Source of the DNA: Cordylochernes scorpioides
Taxonomy: Eukaryota; Arthropoda; Arachnida; Pseudoscorpiones; Chernetidae
Length of the DNA stretch: 64,000 nucleotides
Assembly: GCA_030710605.1 (NCBI GenBank)
Contig: CP092863.1
Coordinates: forward strand, 116,068,680-116,132,679
Direction of reading: 5' to 3'
This document shows positions 3,345-62,460 of this stretch, one piece after another. The notes under the pieces are model-generated. The model was not told the DNA's origin. It saw only the letters and a list, made by a program, of their open reading frames with translations, and ran no database searches. Each line of letters begins with the position of its first letter. The stretch's first letter is position 1. The position numbers were made by a program, and so were the translations under genes.

Positions 3345-3556
3345 CCCGGGGAGTGACACACGGTAGAAAAGGACGGTCGTCACCCGAACGTTTATCTCGA
3401 GGCCACCGCCGCCATTTTTCAATCCAAACAATTAGGACACAAAGTCCCGAGGGTCAGTCCTTGGTGGAGGTCCCACGGGACTTCACTGTGTCTGTGTACG
3501 TCGTCCTAGCAACCATGGACTGTAAGTCCACACATCTCGCCCTGCCAGCAATAGTT
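3345..3556. other. GC-rich unique island
   Basis: About 210 bases with much higher GC and CpG content than the surroundings, including GCCACCGCCGCCATTTTTC. It abuts the 3' end of the U6-derived array. A frame is open across it but matches nothing I know. It may be a promoter-like fragment or part of the sequence captured with the U6 pseudogene. Confidence 0.4.
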
Positions 3557-3672
3557 CACTTAGGAACGCTTCACGAATTTGTGTGTTATCCTTGCTTATG
3601 GGCCATGCTAATCTTCTCTGTATCCTTCCTATTGTAGTAGTTGTATCGCCGAACTGGTATCACAGGGGCCAT
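3557..3672 (-). pseudogene. U6 snRNA pseudogene (3' part)
   Basis: Read on the minus strand, the segment contains the U6 snRNA core GATACAGAGAAGATTAGCAT followed by GGCC, then AAGCAAGGATAACACACAAA and TTCGTGAAGCGTTCC. These correspond to the conserved U6 core, internal stem-loop region and 3' end. U6 is the catalytic snRNA of the spliceosome. This copy has several substitutions in the stem-loop region, and its 5' end leads into the tandem array rather than a promoter, so it is a pseudogene. The match rests on my knowledge of the U6 sequence, not on an alignment run. Confidence 0.85.
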
Positions 3673-5036
3673 GCTAATCTTCTCTGTATCCTTCCTATTG
3701 TAGTAGTTGTACCGCCGAACTGGTATCACATGGGGCCATGCTAATATTCTCTGCATCCTTCCTATTGTAGTAGTTGTACCACCGAACTGGTATCACAGGG
3801 GCCATGCTAATCTTCTCTGTATCCTTCCTATTGTAGTAGTTGTACCGCCGAACTGGTATCACAGGGATCATGCTAATCTTCTCTGTATCCTTCCTATTGT
3901 AGTAGTTGTACCGCCGAACTGGTATCACAGGGACCATGCTAATCTTCTCTGTATCCTTCCTATTGTAGTAGTTGTACCACCGAACTGGTATCACACGGAT
4001 CATGCTAATCTTCTCTGTATACTTCCTATTGTAGTAGTTGTACCACCGAACTGGTATCACACGGATCATGCTAATCTTCTCTGTATACTTCCTATTGTAG
4101 TAGTTGTACCGCCGAACTGGTATCACAGAGGCCATGCTAATCTTCTCTGTATCCTTCCTATTGTAGTAGTTGTACCGCCGAACTGGTATCACAGGTACCA
4201 TGCTAATCTTCTCTGTATCCTTCCTATTGTAGTAGTTGTACCGCCGAACTGGTATCACAGGGACCATGCTAATCTTCTCTGTATACTTCCTATTGTAGTA
4301 GTTGTACCGCCGAACTGGTATCACAGAGGCCATGCTAATCTTCTCTGTATACTTCCTATTGTAGTAGTTGTACCGCCGAACTGGTATCACAGAGGCCATG
4401 CTAATCTTCTCTGTATCCTTCCTATTGTAGTAGTTGTACCGCCGAACTGGTATCACAGGTACCATGCTAATCTTCTCTGTATCCTTCCTATTGTAGTAGT
4501 TGTACCGCCGAACTGGTATCACAGGTACCATGCTAATCTTCTCTGTATACTTCCTATTGTAGTAGTTGTACCGCCGAACTGGTATCACAGAGGCCATGCT
4601 AATCTTCTCTGTATCCTTCCTATTGTAGTAGTTGTACCGCCGAACTGGTATCACAGGGACCATGCTAATCTTCTCTGTATACTTCCTATTGTAGTAGTTG
4701 TACCGCCGAACTGGTATCACAGAGGCCATGCTAATCTTCTCTGTATACTTCCTATTGTAGTAGTTGTACCACCGAACTGGTATCACAGGGGCCATGCTAA
4801 TCTTCTCTGTATCCTTCCTATTGTAGTAGTTGTACCGCCGAACTGGTATCACAGAGGCCATGCTAATCTTCTCTGTATACTTCCTATTGTAGTAGTTGTA
4901 CCGCCGAACTGGTATCACAGAGGCCATGCTAATCTTCTCTGTATCCTTCCTATTGTAGTAGTTGTACCGCCGAACTGGTATCACAGGTACCATGCTAATC
5001 TTCTCTGTATCCTTTCTATGGTAATAGTTGTACGTG
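3604..5036 (-). repeat. 66-bp satellite derived from U6 snRNA, about 22 copies
   Basis: The core ATGCTAATCTTCTCTGTAT recurs from 3,604 to 4,992 at 66-base spacing (two intervals are 67). On the minus strand each unit is a degraded U6 5' half (TTCGGCGGTAC for TTCGGCAGCAC) plus the exact U6 core GATACAGAGAAGATTAGCAT and GGCC or a variant. Because 66 is a multiple of three, long frames stay open on both strands. These are artefacts, not genes. Units differ mainly at CCGCC/CCACC, ATCC/ATAC and the bases before CATGC. Confidence 0.92.
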
Positions 5037-5220
5037 GTTCCTTGGGAATATACTATGGATGCCTAGGGGATTTATTCGTGTGCGTATCTGCCCGAATGTA
5101 TATACTTTACTTATAAAGTTATTGTCCCCCTGAACTTTAGTTGAAATATGCTGCTTCTAAGAAATCAGAATATACACATTGCAATTTTCAAGCCACTATC
5201 TATACTCTTAATGTTTCTTC

Positions 5221-5850: not shown

Positions 5851-6456
5851 GTAGGACTAAGTCTTATTTTCTTGAAGACCTACCGAGAAAAAAAAACTTT
5901 ATTGATAAATAGTACTAAAAATAAAAAATAAAAAAAAATTAAATACAATAAAATCATTTTATGTTCCCTAACTTTTTCATATCAGGGTAGAGAAATCACT
6001 GTCTTAGTTTCAATCGTGGGATATGTAAATGAGCCTGATGTTAATTTGCATATCCTGTCAATTTGCATATAGCCAAAGTTTGACTACTGCAGCAGAGTCG
6101 CAATTACATATTGGCAGGACACAAGGGTTAGCGAGCGAGAGAAATATGTGGGTGGCAACAAGACCAAAAATATATATTGAAAAAAAAAAAAAAAAAACTT
6201 GGAATCTCATTAAAGATTTCCTCGTCTGTGTCCAAAATTAGGATCTGCTGCATAGAATTCGATTATTACAATCCGATAATTGAAGCACGAAATCTCCGTT
6301 TTTTTTTTGGAATGTTTGGGTAGGAAACAGTTTATAAGGCTTAGAGAACCTTTTTGATAAATTAAGAGAAAGACATCTTCTGATTCGTGCAACTAAAAAT
6401 TGCTGATGGCTTGCGCCATCTATCGGAATAAATATCAACTATTTGTTTATTTTTAA

Positions 6457-6727
6457 CTTGGTTTATATAAATTCTACAAGGCCGCAGTAACCGTTCGGAG
6501 GAAATTAATAAAATCGTTAATGTCGTGGTCCATTTGGATGAGGAAAGTGAAGACTAGAACGCGGCTGATTCCACACTAGCCTGTTCAGTGATTCGCTAAC
6601 CATGACGTATGCACGAAGGAACGTGTGGCCATTGGACATGCGTCGGACCAGGAGCTCCATCTATTATTTATTCCTGTAGTGAATCTGTATAAGACCGATG
6701 GTCTTAATAAAGCTTTGTGTGTGTGTG
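6457..6727 (+). mobile_element. Short retroposon insertion with 15-bp target duplication
   Basis: The insert is flanked by identical copies of TTTGTTTATTTTTAA at 6,442-6,456 and 6,728-6,742. It ends with GGTCTTAATAAAGCTTTGTG and a GT repeat. This is the signature of target-primed reverse transcription. The tail matches the unit of the 22.9-kb satellite. The 5' part is GC-richer and unrecognised, so it may be a SINE or a 5'-truncated LINE. Confidence 0.85.
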
Positions 6728-6797
6728 TTTGTTTATTTTTAAATTATTCCAGAATTTTGGCTAAAAATACCCTTTTTTGATTAATTAAGAAGAGCTA

Positions 6798-6839
6798 ACT
6801 ACGTACACGTTTCGGGCTGTTGGTCCTCATCAGCGTGGT
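6798..6839 (-). ncRNA. Type-I hammerhead ribozyme (probably weakened)
   Basis: On the minus strand: stem I strand ACCACG, CTGATGA core, stem II GGAC-CAACA-GCCC with one A-C mismatch, GAAA, short stem III AC-GT-GT, cleavage triplet GTA, and stem I partner CGTAGT with one mismatch. All conserved core nucleotides are present. The very short stem III matches the minimal hammerheads known from Penelope-like elements and animal retrozymes. Confidence 0.75.
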
Positions 6840-7079
6840 ACAAGCTGTGGAATAATTAGAAAAATCAACAATTTGTTGATATTTATTCCGACAGATGGCG
6901 TAAGTCATCAACAACTTTTAGTTTCACAATCAGGAGATGTCTTTCTCTTAATTTATCAACATGATTATAGTATGATTTCACTTATATATTTTTTTCATAC
7001 ACACATACATTTTGTGCTCTAAAAACTACAACACTAAAACTACAAGCTGAAGAAATGTGTACACATACACAACTATATA

Positions 7080-8574
7080 CACTGGTGTCGAAAAAATAAG
7101 AAACTTTTGTTTTTTTAATGATATGTTTTAAAATATACAACGCTAAAAGCTAAAAAGTAATTTAATTAGGTATTTTAAGTCGTAGAATTTATTTATCGCA
7201 ACCATTCGATTCGGTAAAATTGAAAATATGCAAATTTTTGCTTGTCTTTATAAGTGTGCTATTTGGCGTGTCGTTTACCCCATCTAAGAATTGTCCAATT
7301 ATAATTTTATTTAATCCTTAGTTAATTATGAGTTTACGAAAAATTTTAGCAGATGATTTAAAATGGAGAGCTGTTGGAAGAATGGAGGCAGGGCAATCAC
7401 AAGTTGAAGTAGCAAAATGGCTAAATGTGAATAAATCTGTGGTTAGCAAAATATGGAAACAGTTCATTGAGACAGGAACCATCAAAAGAAAAGAAGGTTA
7501 TGGTAGAAAAAGAAAAACAGCTACCTCTGAAGACCGTTATCTGGTCGTAACTGCCAAGCGCCATAGGGAGATGACAGCTATTCAACTCTCTAATGAACTC
7601 TCAAGTGCTACTGGAACGAGAATTTCAAGACAAACTGTTTACCGAAGGCTTCACGAAGGTGCTCTTTATGCAAGACGACCAATGATCTGTATCCCTTTAA
7701 CCTCTGCTCACAGGAGAGCCCGCTTGAATTGGTGCTTGGAACATCACGCCTGGACTCATGATCAGTGGGCCAATGTTCTCTTCAGTGACGAGTCAAGATT
7801 TAGTTTAAACACAGATTCTCGACGAGTTTTCATCTGGAGGGAGCCTGGAATCCGCTATCATCCCAGTAACATCAGGGAAATAGACAATTTTAGAGGGGGC
7901 AGTCTCTTAGTCTGGGCTGGCATCAGTTCTAGCAGACGCACACCCCTCCACATTTTTTCTGGGGGCATTTTAACTGCCCAAAGGTACAGGGACGAGATCC
8001 TTGAGCCCTATCTAAGACCTTATAGAGATCAAATTGGTCACAAATTAATTTTTATGGACGATAATGCTCGTCCGCATAGGGCTAGGCTAGTCAATGAATA
8101 TCTCCAGAGTGTGAATATTCGAAGGATGGATTGGCCAGCCAGATCTCCGGACCTGAATCCAATAGAGAATGTGTGGGATGCTCTAGGGAGGCGTATTGGA
8201 GCTCGTCACCCCTCTCCCAGAACCCTCGTTGAGCTAAGAACTGCTCTATTGGAGGAGTGGGGTTTACTACCCCTGGACCTCCTCCAAAGCCTGGTAAACA
8301 GTATGAGGGCTCGCTGTGAGACCTTGATAGCTGTTAGAGGTGATCATACTCCCTATTGATATCTTATTTCTTTAAGATCTGGAATCTTAACTTTGGGTAT
8401 GTTGGTAATAATTTGCATATTTCATAATTTAAAATCTTTTTTTATTATTTTCATATAGCTAGTCAAATTCTCCATAGTTTAAACTATTTGTATACTAAAT
8501 TTTATATTTGTTAATAAATTAGCTTTTGAGAAATTTCAATATTGGTTAAGTTTCTTATTTTTTGGACACCAGTG
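7080..8574 (+). mobile_element. Complete Tc1-family transposon
   Basis: The element is 1,495 bases with terminal inverted repeats starting CACTGGTGTC and continuing AAAAAATAAGAAACTT, with a single G/C mismatch between ends. It is flanked by TA on both sides (7,078-7,079 and 8,575-8,576). It encodes one intact transposase. It sits inside repeat R2, whose uninterrupted form is visible at about 13,610-13,740 and 40,900-41,045, so the empty site can be read directly. It looks young and possibly autonomous. Confidence 0.96.
7328..8359 (+). CDS. Tc1-family DD34E transposase, intact
   Basis: This 343-residue single-exon protein would cut and paste the surrounding element. Residues about 10-60 form the first helix-turn-helix (GQSQVEVAKWLNVNKSVVSK), followed by a basic GRKRK stretch at 59-63. 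A second DNA-binding helix set lies near 75-115. The catalytic triad is D154 in FSDESRF, D245 in MDDNARPH and E280 in SPDLNPIEN, with 34 residues between D245 and E280, so it is DD34E. The length is normal for Tc1 proteins and no stop or frameshift is present. It starts at the ATG 248 bases inside the left end and stops 215 bases before the right end. It resembles transposases often annotated Tcb2-like in chelicerates. That is recall, not a search. Confidence 0.96.
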   Translation: MSLRKILADDLKWRAVGRMEAGQSQVEVAKWLNVNKSVVSKIWKQFIETGTIKRKEGYGRKRKTATSEDRYLVVTAKRHREMTAIQLSNELSSATGTRISRQTVYRRLHEGALYARRPMICIPLTSAHRRARLNWCLEHHAWTHDQWANVLFSDESRFSLNTDSRRVFIWREPGIRYHPSNIREIDNFRGGSLLVWAGISSSRRTPLHIFSGGILTAQRYRDEILEPYLRPYRDQIGHKLIFMDDNARPHRARLVNEYLQSVNIRRMDWPARSPDLNPIENVWDALGRRIGARHPSPRTLVELRTALLEEWGLLPLDLLQSLVNSMRARCETLIAVRGDHTPY

Positions 8575-9002: not shown

Positions 9003-9410
9003 AAAGCACAATTTGGATTATAGATTATAATACAAGAAAATAAGACCTAATCCGAATAATTTATTAGTGTGTGACGTTTAATTTAAAAGTCGGTGGACGA
9101 GTAGGTAACACCCTCGATTCCCGACAGTCATGAACCGGGATTGTATCTCGCGTTAAAAATTGTTTAATATGTGAATAACCTTCACATATTATTCATTGTT
9201 CAATTATCATGAACTAGGTATCTCTTGCTGAGCGGTACCTATTTATGCGAATTTGAACCAGGTGTGTGACGTTTCGGCAACAACATTGTTACCATCATCA
9301 GACAAAAGAATAAAAAAATTGTCTGATGATGGTGACAATGTTGTTACCGAAACATCACACACTAATAAATTATTTGGATTAGGTCTTATTTTATTTTATT
9401 TTGTGAGACT
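9003..9410. repeat. Palindrome with GTTGTTACC hairpins, split by a SINE
   Basis: The arms carry TAATCCGAATAATTTATTAG and the inverted ATAAATTATTTGGATTAGG. Each also has a hairpin (GGTAACAA type) between CTGATGA and GAAAC. The left arm is interrupted by SINE-B at 9,080-9,261. Confidence 0.75.
9080..9261 (+). mobile_element. SINE-B copy with 13-bp target duplication
   Basis: The insert is 182 bases flanked by identical GTGTGTGACGTTT (9,067-9,079 and 9,262-9,274). The tRNA-like head runs from GTCGGTGGACGAGTAGGTAA to CCGGGATTG. The body has CTTCACATATTATTCA. The 3' end has GAGCGGTACCTA and ends TTTGAACCAG. SINE-B copies here are consistently about 180 bases. Confidence 0.88.
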
Positions 9411-11185: not shown

Positions 11186-11522
11186 ACAATTTGGATTATA
11201 GATTATAAAACAAGGTAATAAGACCAAATCCAAATAAATAAATAGTGTGTGACGTTTCGGTAACAACGTTGTTACCATCTTCAGACAAAAGTACTGAATG
11301 AGAAATTTTACTGCAGCATGGTTTAATAAGTTACTGTTATCAAGTGTGGAAACAAGATAACTTCTTCTTATCTGTTATCTTGTTTACACACTTGATAACA
11401 GTAACTATTTAAAACAGGCTGTTGTGTAAAATTTCTCATTCAGTACTTTTGTCTGAAGATGTTCAACGCTGAAACGTCACACACTATTTATTTATTTGGA
11501 TTTGGTCTTATTACCTTGTTTA
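11186..11522. repeat. 337-bp near-perfect palindrome
   Basis: Arms of about 165 bases (AATAAGACCAAATCCAAATA against TATTTGGATTTGGTCTTATT, and ATCAAGTGTGGAAACAAGAT against its complement) meet at a loop near 11,355. Each arm carries the GTTGTTACC/GAAACGTCACACAC module. A transcript would form one very long hairpin. Confidence 0.85.
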
Positions 11523-12972: not shown

Positions 12973-13012
12973 GAAATGTATATTCAGTAAAACTTAATTA
13001 TAAAATATTATG

Positions 13013-13313
13013 AAAAAAAGGCATCTTATCGTGCAACTGAAAGTTGCTGATGGCTTGCGCCATCTATTGGAATAAATATCAACTATTCTCGTTGATTTTT
13101 AATTATTCCAGAATTGGCCAAATACCCATTCTTGATTAATCAAGAAAAGCTAACCACGGACTCGTTTCAGGCTGTTGGCCCTCATCAGCGTGGTGCAAGC
13201 TGTATTATTATGCATTAATTAAAAAATCAACGAGAATAGTGGATATTTATTCCGATAGATGGCGCAAGCCATCAGCAAATTTCAGTTGCACGATAAGGAG
13301 ATGCTCTTTTTTA
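13013..13313 (-). mobile_element. Complete hammerhead foldback element
   Basis: Inverted arms of about 90 bases (13,013-13,103 and 13,224-13,313) share AGTTGCTGATGGCTTGCGCC and AATAAATATCAACTATTC. Between them lies an ATTAATCAAGAAAAGC segment and a complete hammerhead ribozyme on the minus strand. There is no ORF. It is the clearest reference copy of this family apart from the 61.5-kb element, which belongs to a different arm subfamily. Confidence 0.85.
13153..13194 (-). ncRNA. Type-I hammerhead ribozyme, all core elements present
   Basis: Minus strand: ACCACG (stem I), CTGATGA at 13,188-13,182, stem II GGGC-CAACA-GCCT (one G-U pair), GAA, short stem III AC-GA-GT, cleavage triplet GTC ending at 13,159, then CGTGGT, which pairs perfectly with ACCACG. 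An outer helix (AGCT/AGCT) lies beyond a small internal loop in stem I, as expected for tertiary contacts. Predicted cleavage is 3' of 13,159. Confidence 0.88.
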
Positions 13314-13409
13314 AAAATAATTTATGCACCTTATCCCAGTAAAATATCACATTTGTACTATTTTTTTCCACATTAATTATAAAAGATAATTAAGAAGAAA
13401 CACAAGACT

Positions 13410-17419: not shown

Positions 17420-17590
17420 AGTTCTTGAAAATAAAGATACTTCGGCCAGTAAATATTTTTTATTATCTCGAGGTTTCGACAAAAAGCTTTTGTACTCGTC
17501 AGGAGCAAACAAAAATTAAAACATATAGCAAGGCGTTAAAAATCATTCTAAGGCTCCAAGGACGTTCTCACGCGATATTCCAAATTTTGT
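17420..17590 (-). repeat. Hairpin repeat (TTTTGTCGAAAC family)
   Basis: Minus strand: CTGACGAGTACAAAAGCTTT then TTGTCGAAACC. CTGACGA and GAAAC are present around a long stem II, but no matching stem I or III was found. It provides the empty-site sequence for SINE-B at 11,913. Confidence 0.6.
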
Positions 17591-22875: not shown

Positions 22876-22935
22876 TTAGTGACATGTATCAGAGGATTTT
22901 TGTGGCGAGTTGTGAACAACCAAAATGGACAAAGA

Positions 22936-25264
22936 TACTCCTTTTCTGTATCTCTCAGGAGAATCTGTATATAAGACTGAAGGTCTTAATAAAGGTATTG
23001 ATTGATACTCCTTTTCTGTATCTCTCAGGAGAATCTGTATATAAGACTGAAGGTCTTAATAAAGGTATTGATTGATACTCCTTTTCTGTATCTCTCAGGA
23101 GAATCTGTATATAAGACTGAAGGTCTTAATAAAGGTATTGATTGATTGATACTCCTTTTCTGTATCTCTCAGGAGAATCTGTATATAAGACTGAAGGTCT
23201 TAATAAAGGTATTGATTGATTGATACTCCTTTTCTGTATCTCTCAGGAGAATCTGTATATAAGACTGAAGGTCTTAATAAAGGTATTGATTGATACTCCT
23301 TTTCTGTATCTCTCAGGAGAATCTGTATATAAGACTGAAGGTCTTAATAAAGGTATTGATTGATACTCCTTTTCTGTATCTCTCAGGAGAATCTGTATAT
23401 AAGACTGAAGGTCTTAATAAAGGTATTGATTGATTGATACTCCTTTTCTGTATCTCTCAGGAGAATCTGTATATAAGACTGAAGGTCTTAATAAAGGTAT
23501 TGATTGATTGATACTCCTTTTCTGTATCTCTCAGGAGAATCTGTATATAAGACTGAAGGTCTTAATAAAGGTATTGATTGATTGATACTCCTTTTCTGTA
23601 TCTCTCAGGAGAATCTATATATAAGACTGAATGTCTTAATAAAGGTATTGATTGATACTCCTTTTCTGTATCTCTCAGGAGAATCTGTATATAAGACTGA
23701 AGGTCTTAATAAAGGTATTGATTGATACTCCTTTTCTGTATCTCTCAGGAGAATCTGTATATAAGACTGAAGGTCTTAATAAAGGTATTGATTGATTGAT
23801 ACTCCTTTTCTGTATCTCTCAGGAGAATCTGTATATAAGACTGAAGGTCTTAATAAAGGTATTGATTGATTGATACTCCTTTTCTGTATCTCTCAGGAGA
23901 ATCTGTATATAAGACTGAAGGTCTTAATAAAGGTATTGATTGATTGATACTCCTTTTCTGTATCTCTCAGGAGAATCTATATATAAGACTGAATGTCTTA
24001 ATAAAGGTATTGATTGATACTCCTTTTCTGTATCTCTCAGGAGAATCTGTATATAAGACTGAAGGTCTTAATAAAGGTATTGATTGATACTCCTTTTCTG
24101 TATCTCTCAGGAGAATCTGTATATAAGACTGAAGGTCTTAATAAAGGTATTGATTGATTGATACTCCTTTTCTGTATCTCTCAGGAGAATCTGTATATAA
24201 GACTGAAGGTCTTAATAAAGGTATTGATTGATTGATACTCCTTTTCTGTATCTCTCAGGAGAATCTGTATATAAGACTGAAGGTCTTAATAAAGGTATTG
24301 ATTGATTGATACTCCTTTTCTGTATCTCTCAGGAGAATCTATATATAAGACTGAATGTCTTAATAAAGGTATTGATTGATACTCCTTTTCTGTATCTCTC
24401 AGGAGAATCTGTATATAAGACTGAAGGTCTTAATAAAGGTATTGATTGATTGATACTCCTTTTCTGTATCTCTCAGGAGAATCTGTATATAAGACTGAAG
24501 GTCTTAATAAAGGTATTGATTGATTGATACTCCTTTTCTGTATCTCTCAGGAGAATCTGTATATAAGACTGAAGGTCTTAATAAAGGTATTGATTGATTG
24601 ATACTCCTTTTCTGTATCTCTCAGGAGAATCTGTATATAAGACTGAAGGTCTTAATAAAGGTATTGATTGATTGATACTCCTTTTCTGTATCTCTCAGGA
24701 GAATCTGTATATAAGACTGAAGGTCTTAATAAAGGTATTGATTGATTGATACTCCTTTTCTGTATCTCTCAGGAGAATCTGTATATAAGACTGAAGGTCT
24801 TAATAAAGGTATTGATTGATTGATACTCCTTTTCTGTATCTCTCAGGAGAATCTGTATATAAGACTGAAGGTCTTAATAAAGGTATTGATTGATTGATAC
24901 TCCTTTTCTGTATCTCTCAGGAGAATCTGTATATAAGACTGAAGGTCTTAATAAAGGTATTGATTGATTGATACTCCTTTTCTGTATCTCTCAGGAGAAT
25001 CTATATATAAGACTGAATGTCTTAATAAAGGTATTGATTGATTGATACTCCTTTTCTGTATCTCTCAGGAGAATCTGTATATAAGACTGAAGGTCTTAAT
25101 AAAGGTATTGATTGATTGATACTCCTTTTCTGTATCTCTCAGGAGAATCTATATACAAGACTGAAGGTCTTAATAAAGGTATTGATTGATTGATACTCCT
25201 TTTCTGTATCTCTCAGGAGAATCTGTATATAAGACTGAATGTCTTAATAAAGGTATTGATTGAT
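22936..25264 (+). repeat. 70/74-bp satellite from a retroposon 3' tail, 32 copies
   Basis: TACTCCTTTTCTGTATCTCT starts each unit, from 22,936 to the last at 25,194. Unit length alternates between 70 and 74 because the terminal GATT repeat varies. Each unit contains the stem-loop AAGACTGAAGGTCTT followed by AATAAAGG, as in the retroposon tails at 6.7, 34.4 and 50.1 kb. A variant unit (CTATATATAAGACTGAATGT) recurs near 23,613, 23,974 and 24,338, about 362 bases or five units apart. That points to a higher-order repeat. Confidence 0.95.
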
Positions 25265-44589: not shown

Positions 44590-44754
44590 CATACCATGTG
44601 TTCTCCTGTAGAAAGACGTTTCGTGCCCGAAAGCTAAAGATCAAAAAGGATTTTTTAAAAGAAAATTTCCCCTGGAGGTCTGATAGTTTTACTCCATATT
44701 GACACAAGGGATTATTTTATTGAAATATTATTTCGTTGACGTAATATATAACTA

Positions 44755-44945
44755 AGAATAAGGCATTTCATGATTATGCAACTAAAAGTTGATGATGGCT
44801 AGTGTCATCTGTCGGAATAAATATTAACTAATCGTTTATTTTTAATTTATTCCTGAATTGGCCAAATATCTTTTCTGAGAGATGGTGCAAGCCATCAGCA
44901 ACTTTTAGTTGCATGGTTAGGAGATGCTTTTTCTTAATTTATCTA
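44755..44945. repeat. Hammerhead-element arms without ribozyme
   Basis: GCAACTAAAAGTTGATGATG and its inverse GCAACTTTTAGTTGCATGG flank TTGGCCAAATATC. The ribozyme has been deleted. Confidence 0.65.
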
Positions 44946-51954: not shown

Positions 51955-52160
51955 TAGATATATATATCTATGTACTGATGAAGGCCATAGCCAGAAACCA
52001 TGGTATACAGGTTGGAATTTTTGTCTGAATTTGTCAAAACTGGTGTTGTGGCTATAATTCTTCATCACCACTAGTAAAGTTTTATTAGTAAGGTGAAGAA
52101 CATAATGTATCATTCTTATGTATAATTAAAGGGAGAGATGTCTTTCCAGGTACATACATT
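51955..52160 (+). mobile_element. Third-subfamily hammerhead element
   Basis: Core at 51,971-52,009, then AAAACTGGTGTTGTGGCTAT, CACCACTAGTAAAG and TTAAAGGGAGAGATGTC. It shares the CTGGTGTTGTGGC segment with the 61.5-kb element. Confidence 0.6.
51971..52009 (+). ncRNA. Hammerhead ribozyme, weakened stem II
   Basis: TGTA, CTGATGA, stem II A-GGC-CATA-GCC-A with a mismatched first pair, GAAACC-AT-GGT, triplet GTA, then TACA pairing with TGTA. Confidence 0.55.
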
Positions 52161-54939: not shown

Positions 54940-55360
54940 AAATTAAGAAAAAGGCATCTCCTTATCGTGCAACTTAAAATTTGCTGATTGCTTGCACCAT
55001 CTGTCAGAATATAAAACTTTGGTAAGTTTAGAGCAATTTGTACACAAATTTATAAATCACTACTAATTAATCGTTTAAATAATTAAAGATATATGTGTAA
55101 ATAATTCTAATATAGCACAATAGTCTGATAGACTTCGTGCTTCTGGAATAATAAAAATTAAAATTTGTCAGAATAAATATGAGCTAATCGTTGGTTTTTA
55201 TTTATTCCAGATTTGACCAAATACCCATTCTTGATTAATCAAGAAAAGCTAACCACGTACGCGTTTCGGGCTGGTGGTCTTCATCAGCGTGGTGCAAGCT
55301 GTACCTCAACGACTAAAACTTTTTATTTGTACGATAAGGAGATGCCTTTTTCTTAATTTT
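54940..55360 (-). mobile_element. Hammerhead foldback element with expanded left half
   Basis: The left arm AAAAGGCATCTCCTTATCGT and the right arm ACGATAAGGAGATGCCTTTT are inverse. About 170 extra AT-rich bases (55,010-55,165) lie between duplicated GTCAGAAT motifs in the left half. Confidence 0.75.
55249..55290 (-). ncRNA. Hammerhead ribozyme with poor stem II
   Basis: Minus strand: ACCACG, CTGATGA, AGAC-CACCA-GCCC (two mismatches), GAAACG-CGTA, CGTGGT. Stem I is perfect. Stem II damage probably lowers activity. Confidence 0.6.
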
Positions 55361-56896: not shown

Positions 56897-58315
56897 CACT
56901 GCGTGACATTGAAAATGGAACACCAAGAAATAGTGGCCAGAAAGTGATGAAACTCGGCAGACAGAGAGAGACAGAGACGAACAATAAGTGATCTTTATTT
57001 CAAAATGATAGTCATAATACAGAGCGAGAACGGCGTCGGCTTAGTAGCAAGTAGGACCACCGCGGACGGCGATGCACGCAGCAACACGTCTAGGTAGAGA
57101 GTCAATCAGAGTACGGATGGCGTCCTGAGGGATGGCTCTCCATTCCTTCTCAACCATTTGCCACAGTTCGTCTTCTGAACGCGGCTGTGGCAAGGCATGC
57201 AAACGGCGTCCAATGATGTCCCAGACGTGCTCGATTGGTGAGAGATCAGGAGAGTACGGTGGCCAGGGAAGCATCTGTACATCTTGCAGAGCTTGTTGGC
57301 TAATGCGAGCAGTGTGCGGTCGGGCGTTATCCTGCTGATAAAGGGCATTGGGTACCCCCTGAAGGTAGGGGAGTGTCACCGGTCGCAGCACATCATCAAC
57401 GTATCGTTGGGCCGTCATAGTGCCCTGAATACGAAGTAAAGGTGACCTGGAATCATACGCGATTGCGCCCCAAACCATGATTCCACGTTGTCGCACGGTG
57501 GGGCGTTCCACAATTGTTGCCGGATTGGACCTTTATCCACGTCGACGCCACACGCGTACACGGCGACTATCACTGGACAAGCAGAAACGCGACTCATCTG
57601 AGAACACGTCCCTGTACCATTCCGTCATCCACGTCGATCTAGCCCGGCACCATTCCAAACGTTGGCGCCTATTCGGTGGGGTCAATGGCAGTCTTCTTAG
57701 CGGACGGCATGAGTGCAAGCCATTAGCAACCAATCGACGGGAAATGGTTCTGGTCGAGATGGAATGATCTAGGGTGTCTTGCACATGTTGCAAGATGGCG
57801 GTACAAGTGGCTTGTGGGGCCGCCACTGCTTGTCGAAGGATACGCCGATCCACACGTGCTGACGTCACTCTGGTTGCACCGGCATTCCTATAAATTGCCA
57901 CATTTCCTTGTTCCAACCATCTTCTCCACAGTCGGTGCACCGTGGACGCACCAAGGTGTGTATCAGCTGCGATTTGACGTATGGACCAACCTGCCCTTTT
58001 CAGTCCGATCACCATGCCCCTCGTAAAAGCGTCTGTCTGCTTGAACTGCCTCCGTTTACGATGACCTGGCATTCTCTGTTATTACACGTGTCTTTTGACA
58101 CAAGAAGAAAATTTCTACAATGATTTTCCTTGAAGAAATAACGACACGAATACTGTCCTTTCTGCAAGTTCCTTCCCTTATATCTTACTCCATGTGCGCA
58201 AGAGAGCTGCGCATTTTACATCATTTGCATAACTCGGTTAGGCGCGTCTACCCTGAAATTTGCATAATTTTCTGGCCACTATTTCTTGGTGTTCCATTTT
58301 CAATGTCACGCAGTG
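56897..58315 (-). mobile_element. Complete Tc1-family transposon with inactivated transposase
   Basis: The element is 1,419 bases with 47-base terminal inverted repeats identical at both ends (56,897-56,943 and 58,269-58,315), starting CACTGCGTGACATTGAAAAT. It is flanked by TA at both ends. Perfect repeats argue for recent insertion, yet the transposase carries one stop. Confidence 0.96.
57041..58072 (-). pseudogene. Tc1-family transposase, one in-frame stop, DD32E spacing
   Basis: The frame is continuous over 344 codons including the terminal stop, except for a TAA at 57,533-57,535 (codon 180). Residues 1-60 hold the first helix-turn-helix (SIRQIAADTHLGASTVHRLW). D159 lies in FSDESRF. After the stop the protein continues in the same frame (GIMVWGAIAYD). 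The second D (248) lies in QQDNARPHTA and E281 in SPDLSPIEH. Only 32 residues separate D248 and E281, against 34 in the other copy; the two-residue loss lies in the loop between HTARIS and LPWP. It ends RGGPTCY, like other Tc1 proteins. Readthrough or repair elsewhere in the genome cannot be judged. Confidence 0.94.
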
Positions 58316-60244: not shown

Positions 60245-61350
60245 AGTTCACAAGGGATGGGGAGAACACTGTGTGGCCTTTTTCCGGGATATAATCCTGT
60301 AGAATATCGCCACCGCTATATACCTATTCTTTGATATTTCATTAATTAGTGCCGGAAATGAAGGAAAAAGTTGCCCCGTTTTATCATTTAGTTTTCGTCT
60401 TTCCTCAGACAGAGCAGCACAATCAAATAATATTCTGTTTACTCAAGTTCGACTTTAGTTTTTTTTAACTTAACATGGTCCTGGTGTCAGTCATGTTTAT
60501 CAATTTCCTTTGAAGCTTCTTCTCTCTTCTTTCATCCATTGACCATTTACTTGTGCATGATGTCAATAAAATATTGCCACGTGGAAAATTAAGGAAGACA
60601 AAAACTTCAGGAGGAGACAACAATTTATTTCAGGAAAGAAAAACTATGAATGGTAAATAAAAGATAAGCCATGAGGGAAATTTACAGAGTAGCAAAATAT
60701 AAACATAAAAATGACCACTCTGTGTGTTAATAAAAATAATGAATAAATACTTTGTTACAATATTTTAAAATCTCAAATCTCTTCTTTTATAGTGCTTCCC
60801 ATCTAGTCCAATTCTCTCTTCCTAGTTCAACCTAGTGAAAAGAAGTTTACAGGCAGATTTCTGTAATTTGTCGGGAATTTGCCAAATATTTTAACTCGAC
60901 TCTCTTTCACAATGTGATATATGTAGTCCCTATATATCCATAGTAACCTTTATGCATACTCTCTTCTAATTTATTATTTTTTAAACCAATGTTTGTGTGT
61001 TATGTTGTATTGTGACGAAGAAATATAATTTATATTTAATTTAACTATTCAATGAAAATATTTGAAACATATTTATTATTTGTAAAATCATCATTTAGTT
61101 ACTTAGCTTGCTCTTGCTCGATATTCTCTAGCTGTAGATAGTTTGGTTAATAATTATCGACTGGTCGTGGTGACGTCATCAATAAATACTTTCACATCTC
61201 CAGATATACAAAGACTTGATTTCTACGCTACAATATGAATGCAATATAGCAAAGAAGTTTCAATCCCAAAAAACGTTTAGGGCGACTCTGTATACAAAAA
61301 AAAAAAAAACACATTCAGGACTTTTTCAATATAAATTAAACTAGATAGAT
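60245..61350. other. Sequence without a recognised gene
   Basis: Mostly AT-rich. The first 300 bases may be the body of the retroposon ending at 60,187. Confidence 0.4.
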
Positions 61351-61354
61351 TAAC

Positions 61355-61515
61355 ACGCCATCTGTTATTGATAATGTGAATTATTTTATAGCGTGCATGT
61401 ATTTTTTCAAATAAAATTATTTTCAACTGTCCCTTTACTGCAATGATTAAAACAATGGGATGGGGCCTGGTTCATTAGTGGTGAATTCTCCCAACAGTTT
61501 CGCCAGTTTAATTGG
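61355..61515 (-). repeat. R1 copy
   Basis: ACACGCCATCTGTTATTG, GTCCCTTTACTGCAATG, GGGCCTGGTTCATTAGTGGT, CAACAGTTTCGCCAGTTTA. Confidence 0.6.
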
Positions 61516-61539
61516 AATTTTTTCCGGGAGGAAATTAAT

Positions 61540-61861
61540 CTATAAAAGCATAGGGCGTCTCTCCCATCAAATTAAACATCAAAACTAGACGCCATCTATT
61601 GACCGTCGCCGCAAACTAGCGTCCTCGGGTCGGTGACAAGCCATTAGATCCCGTGTGGATCTCATGGAATAAAGTCCGTCCTAGACTGACGAGGGCCAAT
61701 AGCCCGAAACCATGGTCTCTAGGTGGACGCTTATCAGTTTGCCAAAGCTGGTGTTGTGGCTTTGTCATCGACCCGAGGACGCTAGTTTGCTGCGACGGTC
61801 AATAGATGGCGTCTAGTTTTGACGTTTAATTTGATGGGAGAGTCGCCCTATGCTTTTATAG
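61540..61861 (+). mobile_element. Hammerhead foldback element, best-preserved copy
   Basis: 322 bases. Inverted arms 61,540-61,642 and 61,758-61,861 match over about 103 bases (CTATAAAAGCATAGGGCG, AAACTAGACGCCATCTATTG, GCAAACTAGCGTCCTCGGGT). The 115-base loop holds a complete hammerhead ribozyme. There is no ORF. The arms include the CGCCATCT motif common to all families here. Confidence 0.9.
61674..61728 (+). ncRNA. Complete type-I hammerhead ribozyme
   Basis: Stem I: CCTAGA (61,680-61,685) pairs with TCTAGG (61,718-61,723), then an internal loop and an outer helix GTCC/GGAC. Core CTGACGA at 61,686-61,692. Stem II GGGC-CAATA-GCCC perfect. GAA, then stem III ACC-AT-GGT, cleavage triplet GTC ending at 61,717. 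Every conserved hammerhead nucleotide is present and all helices pair without mismatch. The minimal stem III and the stem I internal loop fit hammerheads known from Penelope-like elements and metazoan retrozymes. Confidence 0.93.
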
Positions 61862-61864
61862 GTA

Positions 61865-62230
61865 ATTATGCAAATATGTATTTTATTCTGAAGTGTATAT
61901 TCTTGACGTCTGTGGAAGTTTGGAGAACTTCAAGGATGGTTAAACACCAGGACGGATAATCTTGTCTGACCCAGATCGATAGAAAGGTAGAGAATTGATG
62001 ATAAGATTTCACCACCTACAGTCATCTGATAATAAAAAGGTTAAAGAGACATTATTAGCTCTCTCTCTCTCAAGCCTAAAAGTTGAAAATAAAAAAGTAC
62101 GATAATAGTTTAACCGTTTAAGTACTATCAAAAATCAAATTGTAAAGGATTTTTCTAAACGTATTTTACCTAAATAAATCTACCACTTTTTGGCTAAAAA
62201 TATTTTAGAAATATAGAAAAACTTGACTAC
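61865..62230. other. AT-rich sequence, nothing recognised
   Basis: There is a CT repeat near 62,060. No gene was recognised. Confidence 0.5.
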
Positions 62231-62239
62231 AATTACTAA

Positions 62240-62460
62240 GTAAGGCCCTCCTCTTAATTTTTCCATTGCAGTAAGGACAGTAGAAATTGTTTAATTTTAA
62301 AAAGAATCTTACGTGTCTATAATAGTTTCGAATTTTGATAACAGATGGCGTGCTAATGTATCATAATACAATTAATTTATCATTTCAGTAAGGACAGTAG
62401 GGAATTGTTTAATTTTAAACAGAATCATAGGCGTCTAAAATAGTTTCAATTTGTTAAAAC
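62240..62460 (+). repeat. R1-related end repeated twice
   Basis: CAGTAAGGACAGTAGAAATT G with TAATAGTTTCGAATTTTGAT and AGATGGCGTGCTAATG, then again CAGTAAGGACAGTAGGGAAT TG. Confidence 0.55.

Follow-up and report, generated by a model that had tools for sequence, protein, structure and literature searches.

The window analysed here, a stretch of 64,000 nucleotides from contig CP092863.1 of the pseudoscorpion Cordylochernes scorpioides, carries at about 61513-61861 a foldback insertion with a hammerhead ribozyme motif in its loop (locus L007; L007 locus position plus 60039 gives the window position). It is probably a non-autonomous retroelement of the metazoan retrozyme type, inserted in the format of Penelope-like elements (PLEs) and through a PLE protein; on the sequence evidence set out below, its hairpin shape looks like the footprint of a Penelope-type insertion rather than a new kind of element.

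The true unit is not the foldback but a 319-nt tandem monomer, because the array in locus L023 repeats at this period with short reading frames only. L023 holds three antisense and four sense hammerhead units, joined head-to-head with a period of 319 nt; among its five complete units, 2-6 of 320 columns show a difference, mostly one confined to a single unit, and the longest stop-to-stop frame overlapping the array is 127 aa (in a list of frames from 50 aa). Locus L045 also has tandem 319-nt units. A small tandem unit (about 170-400 nt) without an open reading frame (ORF), with a type I hammerhead and dispersed in the genome, is what defines a metazoan retrozyme, and the 319-nt unit has all of these properties. 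Copies were collected from a genome of 2.62 Gb in 24 contigs with two queries: the whole element, including both arms, gave 97 matches on both strands in the best-scoring 40 of 5944 candidates, and the hammerhead alone gave 40 matches in the best-scoring 40 of 1274 candidates; 30 loci were cut for each. The sequence-only reading had inferred a retroelement that is non-autonomous; this, and its type I hammerhead of Penelope or retrozyme sort, is supported, and related copies in which the arms are conserved are dispersed in the genome. Aligned to the L023 monomer, whose positions are written u, the window element (about 61513-61861) consists of the following parts:

61513..61643, minus strand: antisense (left) piece, unit positions 170 down to 40, 82% to the L023 monomer
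61540-61639: left arm, within the antisense piece
about 61513-61539: decayed remnant of the ~34-nt tail, within the antisense piece
61641..61861, plus strand: sense piece, u243 through the hammerhead to about u456 (=137), 89% to the L023 monomer, end without tail
61674..61728, plus strand: type I hammerhead ribozyme motif with minimal stem III, core CTGACGA...GAAA, Rfam negative
61717..61718, plus strand: predicted cleavage site, after C17 of GUC (position from sequence)
61762..61861, plus strand: right arm, from the 3' part of the monomer, pairs with 61540-61639

The inverted arms, seen from sequence alone as about 103 bases long, are present: 61540-61639 and 61762-61861 are 96% complementary over 100 nt with a spacing of 122 nt (105 nt at 95% when gaps are allowed), and the fold energy of the stretch is -229.8 kcal/mol, against a mean of -91.6 kcal/mol (sd 5.4, n=100) for shuffled sequences. 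The left boundary, placed at 61540 from sequence alone, has to be moved outwards to about 61513 by the alignment to the L023 monomer. In monomer coordinates the window copy runs antisense u170-40, then sense u243-456, with 3 nt common to both pieces at their junction. A 94% twin of the element, L008, lies 105 kb away in opposite orientation and with the same flanks, and represents a local inverted duplication.

An antisense piece faces the sense piece in all 30 element-query loci (L023 by eye), the query itself having held both arms. In the hammerhead-only set the facing antisense piece, scored by eye, is found in 24 of 30 loci (four of the 24, L037-L039 and L049, are shared with the first set), which is the head-to-head inverted copy at the 5' side that marks the Penelope type; it is missing from L051, L052, L053, L054 and L066, and from L044, which has a 16-nt antisense stub. 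Pooling of the sets, after removal of repeats and of one partner from each of four same-flank pairs, leaves 52 loci, among which a script recognises 44 foldbacks; these have 42 distinct junction pairs. In 27 of the foldbacks the two pieces have 0-6 nt in common at the junction, and in the other 17 there are unmatched letters between them. Because the inner junction differs in almost every insertion, the arms are evidently not built-in: the left arm is, as read from these alignments, an antisense piece of the monomer joined head-to-head to the sense piece. With the both-arm query, every sense piece seemed to begin directly after the second priming site; this rule was gone in the hammerhead-only sample and is not retained.

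These junctions bear directly on a foldback or miniature inverted-repeat DNA transposon, in which the arms would serve a transposase as terminal inverted repeats and the hammerhead would be a passenger. The long inverted arms and the AT-rich targets would suit such an element, and Tc1-like open frames are present in the window at 7322-8359 and 57041-58078; it is nevertheless very improbable. It calls for all copies to share one structure, with fixed terminal inverted repeats at either end, whereas the inner junctions are nearly unique (42 of 44), the two sides differ by the 34-nt tail, some copies have no antisense piece, multi-unit tandem and head-to-head arrays occur, and the duplications are of variable length; the terminal repeats of the 57041-58078 transposon are, moreover, of unrelated sequence. 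An assembly artefact, by which chimeric long reads would have produced the palindromic foldbacks, recalls the 3.7-kb near-perfect palindrome around a PLE in L097 and the near-twin L008, with its same flanks at 105 kb in opposite orientation. It is hardly credible, since foldbacks occur in 44 of 52 loci with different flanks and the same two unit end positions, some are bounded by target-site duplications, and their arms are mostly 85-96% alike, not identical.

The outer ends of the insertions fall at u~141 or u~175, 34 nt apart, and the stretch between them constitutes the tail. Both ends could be classified in 41 foldbacks: 30 bear the tail at the left end alone, 6 at the right end alone, 3 at both and 2 lack it (Fisher p 4.5e-4), which puts it on exactly one end in 36; the corresponding numbers in the hammerhead-only subset are 12, 1, 3 and 1. 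Three further foldbacks have a left tail and a right end at another position, and by eye, outside the script, the tail is right-only in L023 and left-only in L045. Two start sites for the reverse transcriptase (RT), with an optional tail of 30-40 nt on one end, are the second mark of the Penelope type, and the one-sided tail offers a readable signature.

Copying of one arm from the other is disfavoured by the inequality of the outer ends. It would occur by snap-back, where a single cDNA would loop round to serve as its own template, or an antisense RNA as its own primer, the element still being a retrozyme and perhaps PLE-made; self-priming has been proposed for a rotifer Penelope (PMC3846280). 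Snap-back would yield head-to-head foldbacks, and it would explain why similarity is higher for the two arms of a single copy (0.944) than for arms taken from separate copies (0.903; permutation p 2e-4, from the 16 of 30 loci that could be used), a relation equally expected if both cDNAs derive from one RNA; in just 4 of these 16 loci is the right arm of the copy also the best match of its left arm. It predicts equal outer ends, yet the tail is one-sided in 36 of 41 foldbacks, and in 30 copies the antisense piece outlasts, at the outer end, its supposed sense template. We consider it unlikely.

Target-site duplications other than plain TA repeats are found in L012, L013, L014, L019, L024 and L034 of the element-query set and in L046, L048, L055, L060 and L066 of the hammerhead-only set; about 11 loci are convincing cases, but taken over all loci the statistic is weak, many targets being (TA)n. 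Twin priming by LINE-1 (long interspersed nuclear element 1) is known to give inverted 5' parts together with target-site duplications, and a LINE-type RT with twin priming (5' inversion) in place of the PLE would do the same here. Either LINEs or PLEs are named as possible for retrozymes (PMC7229834). Among the ends inspected, however, there is no poly(A) or simple-repeat 3' end, and on the evidence of these ends a LINE route seems improbable.

The RNA that was copied into these insertions was apparently circular or multimeric, not a cleaved linear monomer, because antisense pieces extend past the hammerhead cleavage site: they run 30-276 nt beyond it in L009, L016, L045, L058, L060, L061, L063 and L065, 3 nt beyond it in L025, and by full units in L023. 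The findings favour such a template over the cleaved linear RNA, and a scheme can be drawn from it in which transcription, cleavage, circularisation, the responsible protein and the choice between circle and multimer are inferred. Tandem copies would be transcribed, and the hammerhead would cut the multimers into monomers that can be circularised; because stem III is weak (see below), dimers may assist cleavage. Circular or multimeric RNA would be taken up by a PLE protein, with its RT and GIY-YIG endonuclease, and the endonuclease would nick the two strands of an AT-rich target at positions between a few and about 15 nt from each other. A separate cDNA would then be primed by each 3' end of the target, at one or the other of the two start sites (34 nt apart), and the two cDNAs would meet and be joined with little or no shared sequence, leaving a head-to-head foldback with the hammerhead near the junction. 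As a whole, we hold this retrozyme insertion in Penelope-type format, via a PLE protein, to be likely. That circular or multimeric retrozyme RNA is the natural substrate for a dimer of the PLE protein, which primes both cut strands on it, each protomer using a different start site, so that the one-sided tail is its footprint and retrozymes are partners of PLEs in the manner of SINEs (short interspersed nuclear elements), is a more tentative proposal, with somewhat less than even chances. If it is true, target-primed reverse transcription from two sides would be documented, in readable form, by thousands of insertions present in animal genomes.

The hammerhead of the window element has the conserved core expected in the loop, with CTGACGA at 61686 and GAAA from 61706, and C17 of the GUC triplet is base 61717, so that the cleavage predicted after this base keeps its position. 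The motif has the form of type I hammerheads (CUGANGA...GAAA...UH, three helices, stem I open). Stem I comprises CCTAGA/TCTAGG and an outer GTCC/GGAC with a small internal loop between them, stem II has 4 bp, and stem III, minimal as anticipated, consists of A-U and C-G only, with a CAUG loop (or the palindrome ACCAUGGU). Of the three fully paired helices described from sequence alone, stems I and II form in the minimum-energy fold of 61674-61728, but stem III does not. A strict scan for the core and three stems, with the first stem unbroken, finds the site at 61686 as the sole match in 64 kb; a looser core motif has 11 matches on both strands of the window, whereas 60 order-2 Markov sequences average 0.12, and hammerhead-like cores are therefore common in it.

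The stems of the hammerhead are supported by covariation as far as can be judged from 30 of 34 distinct hammerhead sequences of two families (the four with indels were left out): standard pairs fill 92.7% of the stem cells, and the covariation score is 0.321, compared with 0.163 when shuffled and at most 0.091 when slid. A match at 61674-61728 to an Rfam hammerhead, suggested as a check, was not obtained at any threshold used; a covariance model built from 11 of 13 hammerheads of a second family of the same genome, family A (two with indels or decay were left out), does match 61681-61715 (29.2 bits, E 9.1e-5), via the core and stem II, in an alignment that does not recover the proposed stems I and III. 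As a control, Rfam detected a type III hammerhead in L004 and, at the gathering threshold, missed the similar-looking motifs of L003 and L005. Its reach is therefore limited, and minimal animal hammerhead variants may lie outside its models. These control loci came from an IMG/VR pattern scan (6 loci, one type III by Rfam), none of which is taken as a relative of the element. Rfam was set aside as arbiter of the motif, which the core, the covariation and the genome-built model all support.

Potential machinery is at hand in the genome. The GIY-YIG domain (PF01541) gave 146 matches in 150 scored of 17015 candidates, and PLEs are by these numbers abundant. Another hammerhead-like core, of the GAAACGTC type with a GAAAC[GC]YTG-like ending, is found in 12 of 30 GIY-YIG loci, and hammerheads of this kind, without helix III, have been reported for PLEs (PMC7761336); the window has two such PLE-type cores, at 17502 and 55527, both on the minus strand. 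Inverted repeats of at least 80 nt occur in 15 of the 30 loci. An arm overlaps the GIY-YIG domain in 7 loci, head-to-head in 6 and tail-to-tail in L068, whereby head-to-head orientation is not absolute for PLEs. The PLE of L097 (G000:C1:8984600-8993400), with GIY-YIG at the start of an 828-aa frame, is situated within a 3.7-kb near-perfect palindrome; a pattern search found no hammerhead in it. The window element itself is evidently not a PLE, and resembles one in its insertion only: an autonomous PLE contains an ORF with RT and GIY-YIG, for which the 319-nt unit is too short.

Several observations weigh against a retrozyme inserted by PLEs. The motif has no Rfam hammerhead match at gathering and none at E<=5 on 61200-62400, nor at E<=10 on four loci of the 319-nt family, and two shuffle measures of the covariation set are unexceptional (129/500 for pairs in which both sides have changed, 413/500 for further pair types). 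A blastn comparison of the 319-nt unit with the 30 GIY-YIG loci gives no match, and the unit is consequently no mere deletion derivative of the PLEs in them. The tail is at both ends in three foldbacks and at neither in two. The statistical support from target duplications is modest: a score of at least 9 is reached in 21 of 30 loci of the element-query set, against 27.5% of mismatched pairs, and in 16 of 25 of the hammerhead-only set, against 27.3%; the duplication of the window copy itself is at most 5 nt and not significant. Both copy samples, finally, consist of the best-scoring candidates and are not random.

Family A, a second retrozyme family, shows the same insertion format. It has little in common with the family of the 319-nt unit (B) beyond the hammerhead core, which for family A is found at nine further loci of the window; genome-wide, all 40 scored candidates (of 855) match at >=97%. 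Long arms accompany 4 of the 11 hammerhead loci tested in the window, namely 61686 and the family A loci 6833, 13188 and 55287. L098 has a pair of antisense units of 339 nt, with 99.6% identity to each other, joined head-to-head to a single sense unit, with a tail on the left end only. The corresponding features of the window, and a relict of family B, are:

6354..6959, minus strand: family A foldback, hammerhead 6799-6838, arms 101 nt at 89%, sense side longer (extra internal sequence)
13000..13325, minus strand: family A foldback, hammerhead 13154-13193, arms about 119 nt at 87%, tail on the antisense side only
54940..55359, minus strand: family A foldback, hammerhead 55253-55292, arms 43 nt at 91%
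51974..52053, plus strand: degenerate second copy of the hammerhead family of the window element, without long arms, 76.5% over 81 nt

Other repeats of the window include a foldback with family A arms and a loop without hammerhead (44745-44945), and a third hammerhead-like core, CTGATGATGGTAACAATGTTGTTACCGAAACATCACAC, which occurs three times, on both strands of 9262-9362, where the pair forms a tight foldback with nested inverted repeats, and at 11284 on the minus strand. A tandem array of 32 copies of 74 bp occupies 22934-25264, and a 34-nt piece of it recurs inside the 6833 element. At 3555-5062 there is a U6 snRNA-like gene and, after it, a tandem array with a 66-bp period, made up of about 22 partial copies of U6 and open on both strands. 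The window element adjoins the end of one copy (61465-61512) of a ~45-nt repeat motif that recurs at about nine further sites of the window (for example 20697, 49450, 47235, 40531 and 48712). On its reverse strand this motif has both hammerhead boxes in permuted order (GCGAAACC ... CTGATGAGCC), with a CTGGC/GCCAG closure and no space for stem I. An empty site in the host repeat beside the window copy could not be shown, as its neighbours share the left end point and then diverge.

The 319-nt unit shares with the metazoan non-LTR retrozymes of Cervera and de la Pena 2020 (PMC7229834) a length within 170-400 nt, tandem copies and no expected coding capacity, a type I hammerhead with a stem III of 1-2 bp and a palindromic tetraloop, target duplications of more than 4 bp (here in a part of the copies), low conservation of copies, and the presence of two hammerhead families in one genome, as in mussel. 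It differs in arrangement: direct tandem repeats are described there, and the word 'inverted' is absent from the text available, whereas the copies here are mostly head-to-head foldbacks with a one-sided tail. The enzyme that reinserts animal retrozymes was left open in that text, where PLEs are a strong candidate on the ground of co-occurrence alone, without insertion footprints; footprints of PLE type in a unit without an enzyme of its own now make the question testable.

With PLEs (PMC3846280) the insertions share the adjacent inverted copy at the 5' side, head-to-head, and the AT-rich targets; there, too, an optional tail is found on one of the inverted pLTRs (pseudo-long terminal repeats), of 31 bp compared with 34 nt here, and target duplications measure 8-10 bp in the described cases and up to about 15 nt here. 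The 319-nt unit differs in having no RT-endonuclease ORF. A biochemical parallel is Poseidon of Anolis (PAc, PMC11167929). Its protein in vitro has two internal start sites, next to each other, as the limits of the tail; both target strands are cut and extended, AT-rich DNA is preferred, and unprocessed RNA is used for insertion; PAc also has a hammerhead in its pLTR. Unlike the unit described here it is autonomous and of other sequence, and activity of its hammerhead is dispensable for insertion in vitro. The findings bear equally on the origin of PLE foldbacks, by self-priming or by priming on both target strands. The layout, thought at first to match no described family, is therefore known in itself, with inverted copy, tail and two start sites all described for PLEs (PMC3846280, PMC11167929) and, as far as searched, for PLEs only. 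Head-to-head retrozyme insertions are not reported among the matches listed in the open-access literature; what is new, as far as searched, is that retrozymes carry this layout, and their PLE-type format lends support, at the level of sequence, to a mobilisation of retrozymes by PLEs.
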